NCBI RefSeq assembly: GCF_000018885.1
Contig: NC_010168.1
Span: 2,542,001 to 2,606,000, forward strand
Reading direction: 5' to 3'
From: Renibacterium salmoninarum ATCC 33209
Lineage (GTDB): Bacteria; Actinomycetota; Actinomycetes; Actinomycetales; Micrococcaceae
Length of the DNA stretch: 64,000 nt
The notes beneath the pieces were generated by a model. The model saw only the letters and a list, made by a program, of their open reading frames with translations. It made no database searches and was not told the DNA's origin. The position numbers and the translations under genes are program-made. The number at the start of each line of letters is the position of its first letter. The first letter of the stretch is position 1. Positions 21,044-39,420 of the stretch are shown here, piece by piece.

Positions 21044-21409
21044 ATGGCAGGGAAGACTACGACACGGTATCCGCAGGAGTTGAAGGATCGTACGGTGCGC
21101 ATGGTGGCGGAGATGGAGGGTGCGTCTTCGGAGTGGGCGGCGATGCAAAAAGTTGCCCAGCTTTTGGGTGTGGGTGTGCCGGAAACGGTGCGTAAATGGG
21201 TCCGGCAAGCCGAGATCGATGTTGGTACTAGAACTGGAACAACGAGCACGGAATCGGCCGAGCTGAAACGGTTACGGCGTGAGAACGCTGAGCTGAAACG
21301 GGCGAACGCGATCCTTCGGAGTGCTTCAGCTTTTTTCGCGGTCGAACTCGACCGCCACAACACTGATCGTGAAATACATCAAGGACCATGCCGGTCACCG
21401 CGAGAATAA
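21044..21409 (+). CDS. IS6110-like transposase OrfA (copy A)
   Basis: 121 residues: TTRYPQELKDRTVRMVAEME and the HTH region VAQLLGVGVPETVRKWVRQA match the IS6110 OrfA DNA-binding domain, followed by a leucine-zipper-like LKRLRRENAELKRANAILRS. A TTTTTTC run at 21331-21337 is the expected slippery site for -1 frameshifting into OrfB. The last residues after FFAVELDR differ from IS6110-type OrfA, apparently because one G is missing from the CCGCC run (see findings). Confidence 0.88.
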   Translation: MAGKTTTRYPQELKDRTVRMVAEMEGASSEWAAMQKVAQLLGVGVPETVRKWVRQAEIDVGTRTGTTSTESAELKRLRRENAELKRANAILRSASAFFAVELDRHNTDREIHQGPCRSPRE

Positions 21410-21418
21410 TGGATTGCG

Positions 21419-22309
21419 GTGGGGTGTCGAGTCGATCTGCCAGGTGCTTACTGGGACGGGGTGAAGACCACCCCGTCCACGTACTACGAATGGGTGGATA
21501 AAACACGATCTCACCGAGAACAACGTGATGAGGTGCTCAAGCCCGTGATCCAGAAGGTGTATGCCGCTAATTACGGGGTTTACGGCACCAGGAAAGTCTG
21601 GTTGGCGATGAACCGTGAAGGTGTGCCGGTGGCCAGGTGCACGGTAGAACGGCTCATGGGGTTACTTGGCATACAGGGTGCGGTCCGTGGCAAGGTCAAA
21701 CGCACCACGATCAAAGACTCGAAGGCGGCCCGAGCGAAGGACTTGGTCCGCCGTGATTTCACACCAACGGCACCGGATCGGCTATGGGTAGATGATTTCA
21801 CCTATGTTTCGACCTGGTCCGGGTGGGTCTATGTTGCCTTCGTGATCGATGCCTACTCTCGGAGGATCCTGGGCTGGTCAGCGAGTGCTTCTATGAACAC
21901 CGTGCTAGTGCTCAACGCAGTTAATCAGGCAATCTGGAGTCGTGAACGGGCCGGGGCTGAGATTTCCGGGGTGATTCATCATCACGATGCCGGGGCTCAA
22001 TACGCCTCCTTGGCCTTCACCGAACGCCTGGCCCAGGCCGGTATCCGCCCCTCGATCGGTTCTGTGGGTGATAGTTACGACAACGCCTTGGCGGAAACCA
22101 TCAACGGGCTTTATAAGACCGAGCTGATCAAACCCGGCAAGCCCTGGCGGACTATAGAAGAAGTCGAAATCGGCACCGCTGAATGGGCCGATTGGTACAA
22201 CCACCGAAGGCTCTACCAGTACTGCGGAGACATCCCACCAGTAGAGCTAGAAAACCACTACTACAATCACTACCAGAGCACGGCAGCCGCCGACAGGCTC
22301 ATCGTCTGA
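21419..22309 (+). CDS. IS6110-like transposase OrfB, DDE integrase (copy A)
   Basis: 296-residue frame with the rve integrase core: DDFTYVSTWSGWVYVAFVID (first Asp), HHHDAGAQYASLAF (second Asp) and YDNALAETINGLYKTE (Glu), then the IS3-typical WYNHRRLYQYCGDIPP. The first dozen residues from GTG 21419 do not match the family: the conserved upstream part (GLRWGVESICQVLTGTG) is in another frame, offset by one missing base near 21463. Therefore a normal OrfAB fusion cannot be made from this copy as it stands. Confidence 0.85.
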   Translation: MGCRVDLPGAYWDGVKTTPSTYYEWVDKTRSHREQRDEVLKPVIQKVYAANYGVYGTRKVWLAMNREGVPVARCTVERLMGLLGIQGAVRGKVKRTTIKDSKAARAKDLVRRDFTPTAPDRLWVDDFTYVSTWSGWVYVAFVIDAYSRRILGWSASASMNTVLVLNAVNQAIWSRERAGAEISGVIHHHDAGAQYASLAFTERLAQAGIRPSIGSVGDSYDNALAETINGLYKTELIKPGKPWRTIEEVEIGTAEWADWYNHRRLYQYCGDIPPVELENHYYNHYQSTAAADRLIV

Positions 22310-22339
22310 GAAACCCTCCGGACACACCGGAGCGATTCA

Positions 22340-23460
22340 GCTGCTTCTTTTGAAAGCATGGTGCGCAGGAATTCTTTGGCACCTGATACGTTCTTGCCCT
22401 TGGTAGGAACCATAAACGGCTCGCCTGCCGCACTGTGCAAGGTCTCATAAGGAAGCTTCGAGTCTGATGAGACCGTAAACGCCGGTACGCCAGTCATCTT
22501 GAAGTCGGCCTTAGTCTGCGCCTTCATCTCGTTTTCAATCCAAGAGCCGGACGGATAGAGCAAGGCATCCTGGCTATTCGACCACTATGCTTGTGCGGCG
22601 GTGAAATGAGTTCCGGAGCCACCGGGCACGAAGTAACCCTTTTGCACGGCTTCCGCGATCTTGTTAAAGACCGACTGAATGGCCGGGTGTGACCAGGCAT
22701 CTGCCTTGAGGTTTTCAATGGCAAGACGAACCTCGTTGCCACCTTCCTTCACCGCAGAGCTAACTGCCAGCTCCATGTAATAGGTAGCAGCTTCCTTGCC
22801 CCAAACGAAAAGCTTCTTGCCCTTTTCGGCAGCCTTTGCACCGAGCGCAAGAGCTTCATCCCAGGTCTTGGGCGGCGTCCAACCATTGGCCTCAAAGAGC
22901 GAAGCCGAGTACCAGACAGCGTAAACGGTCAACGCGTAGTTAATCGCAGCGAGCTTACCGTTGAAGGTGCCCGGGGCAGTAACACCATCGTACAAAGTGT
23001 CCTTGATGGCAGTGCCTTCGAGGTTCTTGCCATTGATGACCGAGCTAAGGTCTTCCAGCTGATCCAAAATGGTGCTGATACCGATGGACTTTGCGCCGGA
23101 GTTATCGAACAAGTCCGGCGGGATGCCACCAGCAAAGCGCGGTTGCAGTTCGCCAGAAATATCGGTCGAAGCATTGACCTTTGCCGTGATGCCCTTGTGG
23201 TTCTTGGTCAATAAGTTGCCGGCGAACTCAGCATAATCAATGCCATAACCACCCTTGAAGACCACGACGTCGATCGTCGAGTTATCGGCCAGGCCGAAGG
23301 GGTTGGAGTCGGAAACTGAGCCGGTCTGGCCACCGCTGCTGCTGTCGCCGCCACCGGCAGCGCAAGAAGCTAGGGCGCCACCGAGCGGCACCAATACGGC
23401 TACCGCGAGCGCGCCGCGTAGAAAGCCACGCCGTTCAAAAGACTTCGTTTGGATGTTCAT
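22340..23460 (-). pseudogene. Sugar ABC transporter binding lipoprotein (NgcE-like), nonsense and IS-truncated
   Basis: Starts MNIQTKSFERRGFLRGALAV (ATG 23460, AGGGAAGG upstream) with a twin-arginine-type leader and lipobox LASC, Cys33. The extracellular solute-binding fold resembles N-acetylglucosamine/chitobiose binding proteins (DISGELQPRFAGGIPPDLFD; PKTWDEALALGAKAAEKGKK). TAG at 22585-22587 breaks AAQA-stop-WSNSQDALLYPSGSW, and the gene ends abruptly at the IS boundary at 22339 after TMLSKEAAES. The missing C-terminus is not on the other side of the IS. It would have captured an amino sugar for import. Confidence 0.85.
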
Positions 23461-23541
23461 TTCTTGCCTTCCCTCGATGGTGCGATTGTCATTGCTGTGT
23501 GATTGGCGCCATTGCACTGCCCGGTTTGGACCGGACCCAGC

Positions 23542-23753: not shown

Positions 23754-25096
23754 TGAACCGTTACCGGTTTTATGCCGCTTCCTTTTGAGTTTGGAAGGAA
23801 GCATTGATGGTTATGAATCGGAAGTTTTCGCGGGAGGTTCGGGACAGGTCGGTGCGGCTGGTTTTGGATCATCTCCAGGAGTATCCATCGTTGATGGCTG
23901 CTTGTGCTGCTGTGGGCGGCAAAGTCGGGGTTGGGAAGGAATCCCTACGTCGTTGGGTGAGGCAGGCCTAAATTGATGCCGGGACCAGGGTAGGGATGTC
24001 CACGACGGAATCGGAGCAGGTACGTGCGCTCAAACGTGAGAATCGTGAGCTGCGTGAGTCGTTAGAGATTGTGAAGGCTGCGTCGGTTTTCTTCGCGGGG
24101 GAACTCGACCCCCGCGAAGCATTGATCAGGGGATTCATCGATGAACAACGCTTCCTTGGCTGGGCAGTCGAGGTGATCTGCAAGGTCCTGCGTGGCCAGG
24201 GCTTAACGGTCACTGCCCGGACCTACCGTAGTTGGAAGGTCTCCACCGCTTCGGTCCGGGACATGGCAGAGGCTTCGGTTATGGATGCGTTGCTAGGAAC
24301 GGTAGGGACACCGGAGGGAATGTACGGGAGGAGGAAAATGACGGCTTGGCTGCGTCGGAAAGGATTCGAGGTCTCTTACCGGCAGGTGAACCGGCTCATG
24401 AGCTTGTTGAGTTTGAAAGGCCGGGTACGGGGCAAAGGTGTGCGCACCACGGTGCCGGACCGAAACCATGACCGTGCCCCGGATTTATTGGATCGGTGCT
24501 TCACCGCAGCTGGCCCAAATCAGCGCTGGGTTGCGGACTTCACCTATGTGCGCACCTGGGCAGGTTTCGTCTATGTCGCGTTCATCATTGATTGTTTCTC
24601 CAAGTACATCGTGGGCTGGAACATCTCCACGATCAAGGACACCGCCCTGGTGAGCACAGCACTCAGGATGGGCTTATGGCAGCGGACACGCACCAGGCAT
24701 CCGGTCGCAGAAGGGCTGATCCATCATTCCGCCGCCGGGTCCCAGTACACTTCCTTGCATTTCGGGGAAACCCTGACTCTGGAGGGCATCGCAGCATCAA
24801 TCGGCTCTGTCGGGGACGCCTACGATAACGCCTTGGCCGAGTCCACCATCGGCCTGTTCAAGACTGAAGCCGTCCGAGAAGATTCTCCCTTCCGCAACGG
24901 GCCGTTGAAAACCATCGATGAGGTTGAATGGGCCAGCTTGGCCTGGATCGATTGGTACAACAACGACCGCCTACACACCAGCATCGGAGACATCCCACCG
25001 ACAGAACACGAAGTAGTGTATTACGCTAAAGAAACCATCCCGGCCCAACCGGTGCAGGGACTCGCATAAAAGCGGCAAGAAACCGGTAACGGTTCA
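23754..25096 (+). mobile_element. IS3-family insertion sequence of a second type, inactive
   Basis: 1343 bp bounded by inverted repeats: left TGAACCGTTACCGGTTTTAT and right (reverse complement) TGAACCGTTACCGGTTTCTT, both continuing GCCGCTT. One transposase frame fills it. Flanks are GTG and TTT, so there is no target duplication. Distinct from the IS6110-like copies in termini and protein sequence. The transposase has both a nonsense codon and a lost catalytic Asp. Confidence 0.9.
23807..25069 (+). pseudogene. IS3-family transposase, OrfA-OrfB in one frame, nonsense and catalytic loss
   Basis: From ATG 23807 the OrfA part reads MNRKFSREVRDRSVRLVLDH and GKESLRRWVRQA, then TAA at 23969-23971 (CAA, Gln, expected before IDAGTR). 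The frame resumes and runs without a shift through the OrfA zipper (VRALKRENRELRESLEIVKA) into the integrase: VADFTYVRTWAGFVYVAF, HHSAAGSQYTSLHF, and DAYDNALAESTIGLFKTE. The family has HSDAGSQY; the second DDE Asp is Ala here. The usual -1 shift between OrfA and OrfB is absent, as if frames had been fused. Inactive on at least two counts. Confidence 0.88.
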
Positions 25097-25129
25097 TTTT
25101 GAGAGCTGAATCACTCTTATAAATGAATA

Positions 25130-25173
25130 GACTGTGTGCTGGCCGGATCAACATTTCTGGCCAGCACACAGTC
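25130..25173. repeat. Perfect 15-bp inverted repeat upstream of DUF5819 operon
   Basis: GACTGTGTGCTGGCC at 25130-25144 pairs exactly with GGCCAGCACACAGTC at 25159-25173, loop 14 nt. It lies between the IS end and the first operon gene, 20 bp before its start codon, with no T-run after it. Possible transcript leader structure or the terminator of a gene removed by the IS event. Confidence 0.6.
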
Positions 25174-25193
25174 GCGTTGAAGGGTAGTTATCA

Positions 25194-25976
25194 ATGGCTG
25201 AAACGGTTGTTCCGGCTAAACCGGTCCGGAAGAAGATTGTCCGCGCGACGATGATCGTTGCGGTGCGTGCCGCCTTGTGGCATATTGTGGCTTCGTTTTT
25301 ATGGATTGCGCCGTATTCGGCCGGTGCGTGGGCGTTGTTTCCTGGTGGTCAGCAGGTGCTGTCGTCTTATATGATTCCGATGTTTGGCCAGTCCTGGAGT
25401 GTGTTTGCGCCCGAGCCGGTGAATGGTGATTACATTTTGCGGGTGCGTGCGGTATTGCCTCAGGATGGTCAGGAAGTCACCACTGATTGGGCGGATGCGA
25501 CGGCGGTTGAAACGTCGATGATTGAGCATAATTTGTTCCCGCCTCGTGCTGGCATTGGAGCTGGCGAGTTGGCTTCGGAATTCAAAGGCAAGTGGGACGC
25601 GTTGACTGCTGACCACAAGGTCGTGGTGAATCTGAATTATTTCACTGGCACAGATTGGCCGTTGCGGTTAAATGAGAAGCTTCAGTCCTATGGCACCGTG
25701 AACGTTGTGGCCCCGTATTTGGAGGCCGAGAACACGGTGATTAAGTACTCCACTCAAGTCGCTCGAGCGGTGTGGGGTAACTCGGCGACTCGGGTTCAGT
25801 TTGAAATTTATCGGCAGAACGTGATCCCGTTCGAGGATCGCAACACCCCTGGGGTGGCGCCGCAACCGAAGCAGATCGCTAACACTGGTTGGCGGGGGCT
25901 AGAAGTAGCTCCGGGTCAATCCGATCAAAACTTCGCTGATGTCTTCAAGGCCGCGTATGAAAGGCTGCCCCGATGA
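25194..25976 (+). CDS. DUF5819 family membrane-anchored protein (SdpA-like)
   Basis: A 260-residue protein with a basic N-terminus, one membrane segment at about residues 27-49 (LWHIVASFLWIAPYSAGAWA) and an outside domain beginning MIPMFGQSWSVFAPEPVNGD, the P-x-F-x-Q-x-W-x-x-F-x-P-x-P signature of DUF5819, similar in character to SdpA. It overlaps the HTTM gene by 4 bp. SdpA and the HTTM protein SdpB together mature the SDP toxin in Bacillus; a comparable partnership here is inference. ATG 25194 lies within the only operon left intact between the two insertion sequences and the division cluster. Confidence 0.75.
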   Translation: MAETVVPAKPVRKKIVRATMIVAVRAALWHIVASFLWIAPYSAGAWALFPGGQQVLSSYMIPMFGQSWSVFAPEPVNGDYILRVRAVLPQDGQEVTTDWADATAVETSMIEHNLFPPRAGIGAGELASEFKGKWDALTADHKVVVNLNYFTGTDWPLRLNEKLQSYGTVNVVAPYLEAENTVIKYSTQVARAVWGNSATRVQFEIYRQNVIPFEDRNTPGVAPQPKQIANTGWRGLEVAPGQSDQNFADVFKAAYERLPR

Positions 25977-27169
25977 ACACCACTAAAGCACAGCAAACCC
26001 CGTCTGAGAAACCAGAAACGGTAGTGCCAGAGGCAGCAAAGGAAGCTGACCGGAAAACCTCAGTACCGTCATCGAATGCTTTCGCGCGATTCGTTACTGG
26101 CTTGGCGAACTTCATCGCTAGCTTCTTCAAGGACTTCATCGGCGTGGTAGCTGGTGTCTTGCAACGTGGTTACCTTTGGACTGAGACGTGGTTACTTGAT
26201 TCGAAGAAATTGCTTTTCGGCTTAGCGGTGGCCAGGATTGTGTTCGGTCTGACCGGGCTTGGACTGTTGTTCTTTAACTTCTCTACCCGCCTTTACTCCT
26301 TCGGACCCGGATCAGCTTGGAACGGTGAAGCCGCTGCGGCTAAGAGCGACTTCCCCAAAATCTGGATCTTCAGCATGTTCCACGATGCGATGCTCAACGG
26401 CGCGGTCTATACCTTCCTCTACCTTGTCCTAATGTTTTTAGCCGTGCTGGTCATCGTCGGCTGGCGTTTCAAGTTTGTGTTACCGGTCTACTTCATCATG
26501 TGGGTTTCCTTCATTGAAGCTAACGACATGCTCGGTGACCAGGGCGATAACATGTACCGCATCGCGCTGTTGTTCATGCTGTTCGCTGACCCTGCCGCGA
26601 AGCTCTCTTTTGATGCGCGCCGTCGTAATAAGTTCGCGAACACGTTCACGCCAACAACGCCGTGGATAGTGCGTAAATGGCGTGGCGAGCCGCTTTTCGA
26701 TACCCAAATAGGCAACCTGTTCCACAACCTGACGCTGGTCGTGCTCACCGCGCAAGTCTGCTTCGTGTACGTCTCAGGCGCACTGTATAAAGCCGGCGGC
26801 ACACCCTGGTCTACCGGATACGCGATCTACAACCCGTTGATGACTGACCGCTTCGGCACCTGGCCAGAGCTGAGTCAGCTCTTCACCTACTGGGCGCCCA
26901 TGGTCGCGATCATCTCCTGGTCATCAATCGTGATCCAAATGTCGTTCCCGCTGATGCTGCTGACCCGACCAACCCGCATCCTGGCCCTTTTCGGCATCCT
27001 GTCCTTCCACATCGGCATCGCCGTACTAATGGGCTTGCCCTGGTTCTCCCTCACCATGATCGCTATCGACTCCATCTTCATTCGCGATCGCACCTGGAAA
27101 AACGTCGGTAACCGCATCAAAGACAGCTACCAAAAAGCCATGGCAGGACAACAAAAGGCAACTACGTGA
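25973..27169 (+). CDS. HTTM domain membrane protein (vitamin K-carboxylase/SdpB homology)
   Basis: A 398-residue polytopic protein. After an Ala/Glu/Lys-rich cytoplasmic arm, SKKLLFGLAVARIVFGLTGL opens the HTTM (horizontally transferred transmembrane) domain; further helices include TFLYLVLMFLAVLVIVGWRF, VLPVYFIMWVSFIEANDMLG and FGILSFHIGIAVLMGLPWFS. Charged residues inside the membrane region (GDQGDNMYRIALLFMLFADP) are typical of the fold shared with gamma-glutamyl carboxylase. It is translationally coupled at both ends (ATGA with DUF5819, GTGA with the oxidoreductase). Reaction unknown. Confidence 0.8.
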   Translation: MNTTKAQQTPSEKPETVVPEAAKEADRKTSVPSSNAFARFVTGLANFIASFFKDFIGVVAGVLQRGYLWTETWLLDSKKLLFGLAVARIVFGLTGLGLLFFNFSTRLYSFGPGSAWNGEAAAAKSDFPKIWIFSMFHDAMLNGAVYTFLYLVLMFLAVLVIVGWRFKFVLPVYFIMWVSFIEANDMLGDQGDNMYRIALLFMLFADPAAKLSFDARRRNKFANTFTPTTPWIVRKWRGEPLFDTQIGNLFHNLTLVVLTAQVCFVYVSGALYKAGGTPWSTGYAIYNPLMTDRFGTWPELSQLFTYWAPMVAIISWSSIVIQMSFPLMLLTRPTRILALFGILSFHIGIAVLMGLPWFSLTMIAIDSIFIRDRTWKNVGNRIKDSYQKAMAGQQKATT

Positions 27170-28611
27170 GCGATGCCGCAGTCGTCGGTTCCGGACCAAA
27201 CGGCTTGGCGGCCGCCGTCGTTATGGCCCGCGCAGGACTGTCTGTTGACCTCTACGAAGCCAAAAATACGGTGGGTGGCGGTACCCGAACCGAAGAACTG
27301 ATCGAGCCCGGTTCATGGCACGATGTGTGCTCGGCAGTGCATCCAATGGCTCTTGCCTCACCATTTTTCCGAGAGTTTGGCATTGAACAGCGAGTCGATT
27401 GGTTTGTACCCGAGCTCTCCTACGCCCACCCGCTCGACGGCGGGCGCGCGGGCCTGGCATATCGTGATTTGAATCGAACGGTAGAGTCGCTCGGCGTGGA
27501 CGGGCCGAATTACCGCCGCCTCATGGCACCACTCTTGCGCAATACTGAGTCGGTGTTGGCCACAGCACTCAATCCCGTGCTGCGCGTTCCGTCCGGAATT
27601 GCCGGACCATTAGCGCTGGCAACCGGCGCACTTTGGCAGGGCGGCCCCTGGTGGAATGCAGGGTTCCGCGAAGAGCAGGCACCCGCGCTAATCAGCGGTG
27701 CCGCTGCGCATCCGGTTGGCGTCATGCCGTCCTTGGCCAGCAGCGCCGCCGGCCTGGTTTTAGCTCATCTGGGACATACTGTCGGCTGGCCTATCCCCCG
27801 CGGCGGCTCAGCCAAAATTGCCGCCGCCATGTTGGCAGATTTTGAGTTACACGGTGGCAAAGTCCACCTTGGCCAGACAATCACCGGTCTTTCCGAGGTT
27901 GCAGAGGCGGACGCTGTGCTCTTAGACACCTCTACCAATGCCTTGCTATCGATCGCTGGGGACCGCCTGCCCGATCGCTACGCTGCTGCCTTGCGTCGAT
28001 TCCGCTATAACAATGCCGCTTGCAAAGTCGATTTCATCCTCTCTGCTCCGGTGCCCTGGCAAAACTCGGAGGTCGCCAAGGCGGGAACCGCACACGTGGC
28101 GGGAACTCGTGCCGAGATGGCGCACTCAGAGCGCCAGGTGGCTCAAGGCGTCCATCCGGAACGGCCTTATGTTCTGCTTTCTCAGCCCAGCCAATTCGAC
28201 GCCGGCCGCACATCGGCTGACCAACATGTGCTCTGGACTTACTGTCACGTGCCGGCAGGCTCGACAACCGACATGACTGACGCCGTCGTCCGGCAAATTG
28301 AGCGATTCGCGCCTGGGTTCCGGGACACTATTCTGCATTCAAAGGCCACAACTGCGCAGCAGCTCTCTGAATACAACGCAAACTACGTCGGCGGCGACTT
28401 CGGCTCTGGTGCCACCGGCCTCAAACAGTTACTGGCCCGGCCAGTTGCTGGCAGCAAGCCTTGGAAGACTCCGGTGCGCGGACTATATCTATGTTCCGGA
28501 TCAACCACCCCAGGACCCGGGGTCCACGGCATGGGTGGCTTGCACGCCGCTACGCTTGCCCTCAAAGAGGTCTTCGGGCTGAAACAGCCGGATCTTTCCC
28601 CAGAGTTCTAA
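27166..28611 (+). CDS. FAD-dependent oxidoreductase, phytoene-desaturase/CrtI-like
   Basis: A 481-residue flavoprotein beginning at GTG 27166. The dinucleotide-binding motif VVGSGPNGLAAAVVMARAG is at residues 6-24, followed by DLYEAKNTVGGGTRTEEL, and the C-terminal FAD motif GLYLCSGSTTPGPGVHGMGG is typical of the CrtI/phytoene desaturase-like and NAD(P)/FAD-dependent amine oxidase relatives. The GTGA overlap with the HTTM gene indicates obligate co-translation. No carotenoid synthase genes are nearby, so a carotenoid role is not supported; it probably oxidises or isomerises a lipid or peptide-linked substrate with its two partners. Confidence 0.82.
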   Translation: MSDAAVVGSGPNGLAAAVVMARAGLSVDLYEAKNTVGGGTRTEELIEPGSWHDVCSAVHPMALASPFFREFGIEQRVDWFVPELSYAHPLDGGRAGLAYRDLNRTVESLGVDGPNYRRLMAPLLRNTESVLATALNPVLRVPSGIAGPLALATGALWQGGPWWNAGFREEQAPALISGAAAHPVGVMPSLASSAAGLVLAHLGHTVGWPIPRGGSAKIAAAMLADFELHGGKVHLGQTITGLSEVAEADAVLLDTSTNALLSIAGDRLPDRYAAALRRFRYNNAACKVDFILSAPVPWQNSEVAKAGTAHVAGTRAEMAHSERQVAQGVHPERPYVLLSQPSQFDAGRTSADQHVLWTYCHVPAGSTTDMTDAVVRQIERFAPGFRDTILHSKATTAQQLSEYNANYVGGDFGSGATGLKQLLARPVAGSKPWKTPVRGLYLCSGSTTPGPGVHGMGGLHAATLALKEVFGLKQPDLSPEF

Positions 28612-38781: not shown

Positions 38782-39420
38782 TCAGCGGTGGATGAGTGGG
38801 CTGAGTTCTGAGGAAGCTTCAGCCACTCCCACCATGCCCAAGGACTCCAGCCAGTTGCCCAACATCCGGTAACCACCTTCGGTGAGGACCGATTCAGGAT
38901 GGAACTGAACGCCCACCAGTGGGGCGGTCCGATGGGCTAGGCCCATCACGACGCCGCTTGCCGTCTGCGCAGTAATCTCAAGCTCGTCCGGGATTGTCTC
39001 GCGAACCGCCGCCAAGGAGTGGTATCGAGTCGCGGTGAACGGAGACGGCACGCCGTCAAACATCGCAGCCCCATTGTGCTCCACGGGTGAAGTCTTGCCG
39101 TGCATTAGTTCAGGCGCGTGCGCAACAACGCCCCCGAATGCTTCAGCTAATGCCTGATGCCCAAGGCAAACACCGAACATTGGCTTGCTATTCTGCGCGC
39201 ACCAACGAATTAGCTCGATACAGACGCCCGCCTCCGCTGGATTCCCCGGGCCGGGCGAAAGCAAAACCCCATCCCGGACTTCCGCGAGTGCCACAGCTTC
39301 ATCAAGGGTGACGTCATCATTTCGGATAACAGTGGTCTCGGCCCCTAGCTGCTGCAGGTAGCCCACCAAGGTGTAGACGAAAGAGTCGTAGTTATCAATA
39401 ACTAAAATGCGAGTACTCAT
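38782..39420 (-). CDS. pabA: Glutamine amidotransferase, PabA/TrpG type
   Basis: A 212-residue class I amidotransferase: ILVIDNYDSFVYTLVGYLQQ, nucleophile Cys in MFGVCLGHQALAEAFGG, and the His-x-Glu of GVQFHPESVLTE. It supplies ammonia for para-aminobenzoate or anthranilate synthesis; this orphan copy between pknB and srtE is annotated either way in actinobacteria. The frame continues far upstream, but MSTRILVID is the family start, overlapping the preceding small gene's stop by 4 bp (ATGA). Confidence 0.9.
   Translation of the reverse strand: MSTRILVIDNYDSFVYTLVGYLQQLGAETTVIRNDDVTLDEAVALAEVRDGVLLSPGPGNPAEAGVCIELIRWCAQNSKPMFGVCLGHQALAEAFGGVVAHAPELMHGKTSPVEHNGAAMFDGVPSPFTATRYHSLAAVRETIPDELEITAQTASGVVMGLAHRTAPLVGVQFHPESVLTEGGYRMLGNWLESLGMVGVAEASSELSPLIHR

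Follow-up and report, generated by a model that had tools for sequence, protein, structure and literature searches.

Conversion of the Bacillus protein SdpC into a toxin of 42 residues requires two further proteins, SdpA and SdpB, as described in the available portion of the source (PMC6818787). In the vitamin K carboxylase GGCX, the active base is Lys218, which takes the proton from vitamin K hydroquinone, and the naphthoquinone pocket is lined by Trp223 and Phe299, according to the accessible part of a second paper (PMC12589487). HTTM proteins also occur in linaridin clusters, for example crdG of corynaridin, with a mechanism called unclear in the accessible part of that text (PMC9927463). 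The present work concerns three consecutive genes of Renibacterium salmoninarum ATCC 33209, which encode a DUF5819 protein, an HTTM protein and an oxidoreductase dependent on flavin adenine dinucleotide (FAD). They lie in a stretch of 64,000 nucleotides (contig NC_010168.1, positions 2,542,001 to 2,606,000), hereafter the window. To our knowledge, the chemistry of SdpA and SdpB has no explanation. Linaridin HTTM proteins have been tied to the epimerisation of residues, which would likewise need a strong base. In the open-licence PMC literature nothing was found on DUF5819, on SdpA/SdpB with HTTM or on choice-of-anchor G proteins, nor any title or abstract opening linking DUF5819, SdpAB/HTTM and choice-of-anchor G.

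The three genes of the window are the following.

25194-25976, + strand: DUF5819 gene, 260 amino acids, open reading frame intact; PF19136, 131 bits (cut-off 27.1)
25973-27169, + strand: HTTM gene, 398 amino acids, SdpB-like membrane protein; PF05090, 40.9 bits, above the gathering cut-off of 27.7
27166-28611, + strand: gene of a CrtI/CrtO-like FAD-dependent oxidoreductase, 481 amino acids; Amino_oxidase, 39.7 bits (cut-off 19.8), and NAD_binding_8, 38 bits (cut-off 21.9)

An earlier, sequence-only reading of the window had described three intact genes with 4-bp overlaps, and the open reading frames, coordinates and family matches bear this out, the overlaps being ATGA at 25973-25976 between DUF5819 and HTTM and GTGA at 27166-27169 between HTTM and the FAD enzyme. 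Differences from the relative G004 are mostly at silent sites, with ratios of nonsynonymous to synonymous divergence (dN/dS) of 0.12 for HTTM, 0.08 for the FAD enzyme and 0.03 for DUF5819, the last from a saturated dS. That reading had also treated the trio as one coupled unit. This did not hold: only DUF5819 and HTTM are constant, adjoining each other in 40 of 40 loci (all picked by their DUF5819), and the FAD enzyme is optional, following on the same strand in 12 of the 40. The pair is probably an SdpAB-like membrane maturation system for an exported protein encoded just upstream, a reading that we draw from the fixed pairing and from the recurrent order of exported protein, DUF5819 and HTTM.

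Among 59 related genomes, DUF5819 and HTTM matches fall in the same 13; the genes are adjacent in 12 of these, and the thirteenth (G022) has weak, unlinked matches only. Of the 297 genomes surveyed in the order, 49 have DUF5819 above the cut-off, and of the 394 in the class, 73 do, so that the majority lack it. The protein consists of one membrane helix followed by an extracytoplasmic domain; its motif QSWSVFAPEP occupies residues 66-75, with Q66 and P73 invariant over 74 aligned rows. Tandem double pairs were observed in two families (f38 and f45; L125-L128 and L130), where two DUF5819 genes lie about 1.8-4.5 kb apart, each with its own HTTM, and LPXTG-like genes stand upstream of several.

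Clustering of the neighbours in relatives placed a large protein gene just upstream of DUF5819. Scans of three such proteins identified choice-of-anchor G in two (NF033766, 151 and 217 bits, cut-off 45); the third (L066) differs in its N-terminal part, yet carries an LPXTG anchor. Under a loosened rule applied to both, 38 of 64 DUF5819 sites have the end of an LPXTG-like gene no more than 700 bp upstream, compared with 7 of 864 among the other genes of these loci; a stricter tail rule gave 35 of 64 sites. Sites were read on stop-to-stop frames and the background on simple gene-caller genes, so that the two are not perfectly alike. In the survey of the order, choice_anch_G was found in 41 of the 49 genomes with DUF5819 (two genomes present only below a cut-off being omitted) and in 16 of the 248 without it, an odds ratio of 74 uncorrected for kinship. 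It stands directly upstream of DUF5819 at 26 of 52 sites; these are 52 of 55 DUF5819 rows, leaving out a short fragment above the cut-off (G239:C30) and two rows below it. In the genus of the window, the upstream partner is a large LPXTG-type surface protein, mostly of the choice-of-anchor G kind. The surface proteins of L066, L067 and L076 have long repeats rich in Ala, Asn, Ser and Asp ahead of the LPXTG-type anchor.

Small partners stand in the same place elsewhere. A secreted protein of 109-116 amino acids is encoded immediately upstream at 5 of the 64 sites (L051, L056, L122, L123, L124); all five end in T-x-[FY]-D, followed by R or K in four. None reached a Pfam or NCBIfam cut-off, and none matched TIGR04032 (SdpC) at E up to 1. 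A search returned 41 relatives. When 30 relatives were aligned with the L051 protein, 30 of the 31 rows ended in FD, FDR or FDK, the exception being an incomplete record. Scanning named genomes with the matching DUF5819 yielded 18 loci, three of them repeating earlier ones: 12 from Streptomyces, one each from Knoellia, Microbacterium, Myxococcus and Pyxidicoccus, one labelled Comamonas and one from the Cyclobacteriaceae. HTTM adjoins DUF5819 in all 18, and a small precursor lies upstream in 17, 13 recognised by profile and four by eye (endings TALD, KFDN or RFDPK); only in L168 did neither profile nor eye find one. In the small precursors from Streptomyces, Knoellia, Microbacterium and myxobacteria, [FYL]D occurs at or near the C-terminus. 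In the myxobacterial cassette and its near copy in the Comamonas-labelled record (L179, L181), the genes 3' of HTTM appear, by recognition, to be of the ATP-binding cassette (ABC) transporter type, as expected for peptide export or immunity.

It could be proposed that the pair only helps LPXTG proteins in anchoring, folding or export, with no covalent change. The LPXTG-like genes upstream at more than half of the sites agree with such a role; precursors free of the LPXTG motif in the same position and the invariance of catalytic-type residues, described below, speak against it, and we judge it unlikely.

The SdpABC system resembles the DUF5819 pair in having two membrane proteins next to an exported precursor. 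SdpA was found in 10 of 296 genomes of the class, and three actinobacterial loci (L134, L137, L138) have the order SdpC-like, SdpA, SdpB-like, which parallels that of precursor, DUF5819 and HTTM, with SdpC-like proteins scoring 68.7-92.5 bits, under the TIGR04032 cut-off of 99.2. Both systems share the membrane helix with QxWxxF[A/T]xxP, and their HTTM proteins have Lys, Trp, His and Phe invariant at the same positions. The predicted models of DUF5819 (AlphaFold2, mean pLDDT confidence 91.9) and SdpA (83.1) both show helix, motif and beta hairpin in that order. The SdpA model PF17418 matched neither the DUF5819 protein (E up to 0.1) nor anything genome-wide (E up to 0.001), and the HTTM protein scores 61.1 bits against TIGR04033 (SdpB), under the cut-off of 178.4; by the curated models, the pair belongs to neither the SdpA nor the SdpB family. 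As partner, the DUF5819 pair has either an LPXTG-type surface protein or a member of a precursor family with no Pfam or NCBIfam model, and an FAD enzyme is often added.

The similarity of HTTM to the vitamin K carboxylase, which had been put forward from the sequence, was confirmed: both belong to the HTTM fold family, and human GGCX structures are hit by a profile built from 48 pair HTTMs with E 3.3e-14. In this alignment, from which the residue mapping was read with a numbering offset of 31, HTTM Lys273 falls on GGCX Lys218, Trp279 on Trp223 and Phe358 on Phe299. All 48 pair HTTMs have K273, W279, H346 and F358, and so do all 11 HTTM proteins found next to SdpA. The match covers only GGCX residues of about 114-331, and the extracytoplasmic part is supplied by a separate protein, DUF5819. 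Asn159 and His160, which bind Glu in GGCX, are not kept; position 190 holds Gln or Gly, and 191 mostly Gly. The presence of the base without the Glu-binding residues suggests quinone-driven base chemistry directed at some group that is not Glu. Linaridin clusters likewise combine an HTTM protein with peptide maturation, but have an alpha/beta hydrolase in place of DUF5819, and their precursors are unlike those described here.

These observations raise a sharper form of the SdpAB-like reading, tentative in our estimation, in which the pair and SdpB would be enzymes that depend on quinone, of the same type as vitamin K carboxylase. A strong base, created at Lys273 by menaquinol and oxygen, would modify residues of the exported substrate, and the FAD enzyme would maintain the quinone or its isoprenoid tail. 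The GGCX match with its three aligned residues favours this, as do the FAD enzymes adjoining the pair, which fall in four places of their tree and show several orientations; the replacement of Asn159 and His160 does not, and most pairs have no adjoining FAD enzyme. This chemistry is inferred from sequence. Somewhat less probable still is the full extension of the idea, in which SdpB and the pair HTTM would be menaquinol-driven strong-base enzymes: a bacterial version of vitamin K carboxylase divided over two proteins, of which DUF5819 or SdpA would bind the substrate. Such enzymes would modify cell-wall surface proteins and small secreted precursors, with the FAD enzyme servicing the quinone; the change might be, for instance, epimerisation in Ala-rich stretches or a modification at the conserved C-terminal [FYL]D.

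Under the favoured SdpAB-like reading, DUF5819 and HTTM would form a two-protein membrane machine working like SdpA and SdpB, possibly driven by quinone. The machine would mature or modify, outside the membrane, an exported protein encoded upstream: an LPXTG-type surface protein in the genus of the window, a short secreted precursor in other lineages. DUF5819 would handle the substrate on the extracytoplasmic side, HTTM would be the catalytic subunit, and the FAD enzyme, plausibly a helper of the pair, would assist a redox step. Redox modification by the trio, as first suggested for the window, is kept here as a hypothesis. Conservation in SdpB-like proteins of the vitamin K carboxylase base and of two residues from its quinone pocket, together with the occurrence of this kind of pair beside both sortase-type surface proteins and small precursors in several phyla, makes the chemistry of SdpAB directly testable. 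This also points to an unnamed modification of actinobacterial surface proteins and to a wider, little-studied route for modifying exported proteins.

The chromosome of ATCC 33209 is a single contig of 3,155,250 bases; the available portion of a published description gives one chromosome of 3.155 Mb with many insertion sequence (IS) elements and pseudogenes (PMC3364575). The exported-precursor gene expected beside an SDP-type operon does not adjoin the trio in the window; an IS stands in its place upstream.

23754..25096, + strand: IS element with transposase open reading frame 23996-25069, presumably of the IS3 type, occupying the place of the surface-protein gene of relatives
25097..25193, + strand: 97-bp remnant of the ancestral spacer, aligning with the stretch from surface-protein stop to DUF5819 in L065, L066 and L067

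A perfect 15-bp hairpin in the spacer (arms 25130-25144 and 25159-25173, checked) is probably the terminator of the lost upstream gene. The single choice_anch_G match of this genome lies about 0.55 Mb away (L132), has an internal stop codon and runs into an IS. Genes flanking it match those upstream of the G006 counterpart with 74, 81 and 70% identity; we take them to be UspA-, amine oxidase- and TetR-like, in that order. The window side matches the remaining half of the G006 locus, which is intact in G006 and split here. Over 1343 bp, the IS of the window and the copy interrupting the distant gene share 99.85% identity, and at least nine full-length transposase copies occur in the genome (40 of 86 candidates scored). 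Since the same end of the IS is found at both junctions, one insertion does not account for the split; the simplest reading of the sequences is that an IS-linked rearrangement divided the ancestral locus at the surface-protein gene. The sequence-only reading had seen no precursor peptide gene and had noted that upstream DNA was disrupted by an IS. A partner gene is indeed present in relatives and separated here at the IS, but in the genus of the window its product is a large surface protein of the LPXTG type rather than a small peptide. Because the only choice-of-anchor G gene found in this genome is broken, the pair may now be unemployed or may serve another protein.

Several observations weigh against an SdpAB-like maturation pair. 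The profile comparison of DUF5819 with SdpA reached probability 63 over 60 columns only, and the similarity is confined largely to the helix and the motif, which occur in both alignments; the proposed resemblance to SdpA is upheld as remote similarity, DUF5819 being no SdpA by the curated model. Searches of the PDB gave no good match to either predicted fold. Surface proteins and small precursors showed no common motif in a comparison by eye only, and 16 of the 57 genomes with choice_anch_G have no DUF5819. Identity between the surface protein here and its G006 counterpart is only 36 and 29% in the two frames, against 70-81% for its neighbours, which implies either fast evolution or something other than simple orthology. 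The upstream exported protein is likely the substrate, though adjacency is no proof of this.

Partnerless sites also belong here. Twenty-six of the 64 sites have no LPXTG-like gene upstream; beyond the five with a small precursor, 21 have neither partner type, among them the main Streptomyces-like type (L113-L116) and four loci of one genus (L044-L047). These 21 could be read as a sign that the neighbours are linked by chance or genome position and that the pair has an unrelated envelope function. The upstream frequency of 59% against a background of 0.8%, and the same gene order in actinobacteria, myxobacteria and one Bacteroidetes record, make that explanation highly doubtful. A second pair type in the Streptomyces-like genus g132 (L118_7, L119_12, L120_9) has upstream a secreted protein that resembles DUF3494 by recognition; its tail repeats are rich in His, Asp and Gly, with no LPXTG-like end under the loosened rule.

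The FAD enzyme is less constant. Besides the 12 same-strand loci, it is convergent in one of the 40 (L072) and divergent to the pair in L123 and L124. Among the 18 further loci, 8 have it no more than about 4.5 kb from the pair, and all eight belong to the 14 from actinobacteria. Of the 59 relatives, 47 gave strong matches (E up to 1e-40); 53 matched at E up to 0.001, six of them by short FAD-motif matches only. In a tree of 38 rows, enzymes linked to the pair occupy four places: the genus of the window, f13 with f37, L051 and L072. Two rows were mislabelled as adjacent: L067_16640 is an amine oxidase lying some 6 kb past the pair, and L069 is separated from it by about 10 kb. The seven label changes (five forced) are therefore an overcount. 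The varied orientations and the four tree places indicate that the enzyme is optional and was apparently recruited to the pair on more than one occasion.

The sequence-only reading had named an ordinary carotenoid desaturase as an outcome that would refute it, and the scores do not point to one. General similarity and the FAD domain connect it with CrtI/CrtO-type flavoenzymes, its nearest solved relative by profile being the phytoene dehydrogenase 4dgk (E 1.3e-12). The scores lie far below the carotenoid-enzyme cut-offs, at 51.9 of 238.1 bits for crtI_fam and 82.3 of 1000 bits for CrtO, so that neither model assigns it to the carotenoid desaturases or ketolases. No carotenoid gene was recognised among the listed neighbours in the window, by recognition only. 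The genome carries a second FAD-enzyme copy, likewise with no carotenoid gene recognised among its listed neighbours, on which no family search was run. No lipid gene was seen to recur beside the pair in the neighbour clusters, where no family-based lipid-gene search was made. The second copy (L156:3941-6330, - strand) shares a 4-bp overlap with a polytopic membrane protein gene, and a similar membrane protein gene lies near the unlinked FAD copy of G005 (L147).

Elsewhere in the window, ARAGORN called a tRNA-Pyl with anticodon CTA at 38884-38970 on the - strand, probably a miscall in this organism. A tRNA-Leu gene stands 3' of the trio, together with genes that extend the synteny with relatives and are presumably FHA- and phosphatase-like. 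At 22270-23517 on the - strand, a lipoprotein-like protein is split into two open reading frames adjoining IS genes at 21044-22309; by recognition it is probably the substrate-binding protein of a sugar ABC transporter and likely a pseudogene.

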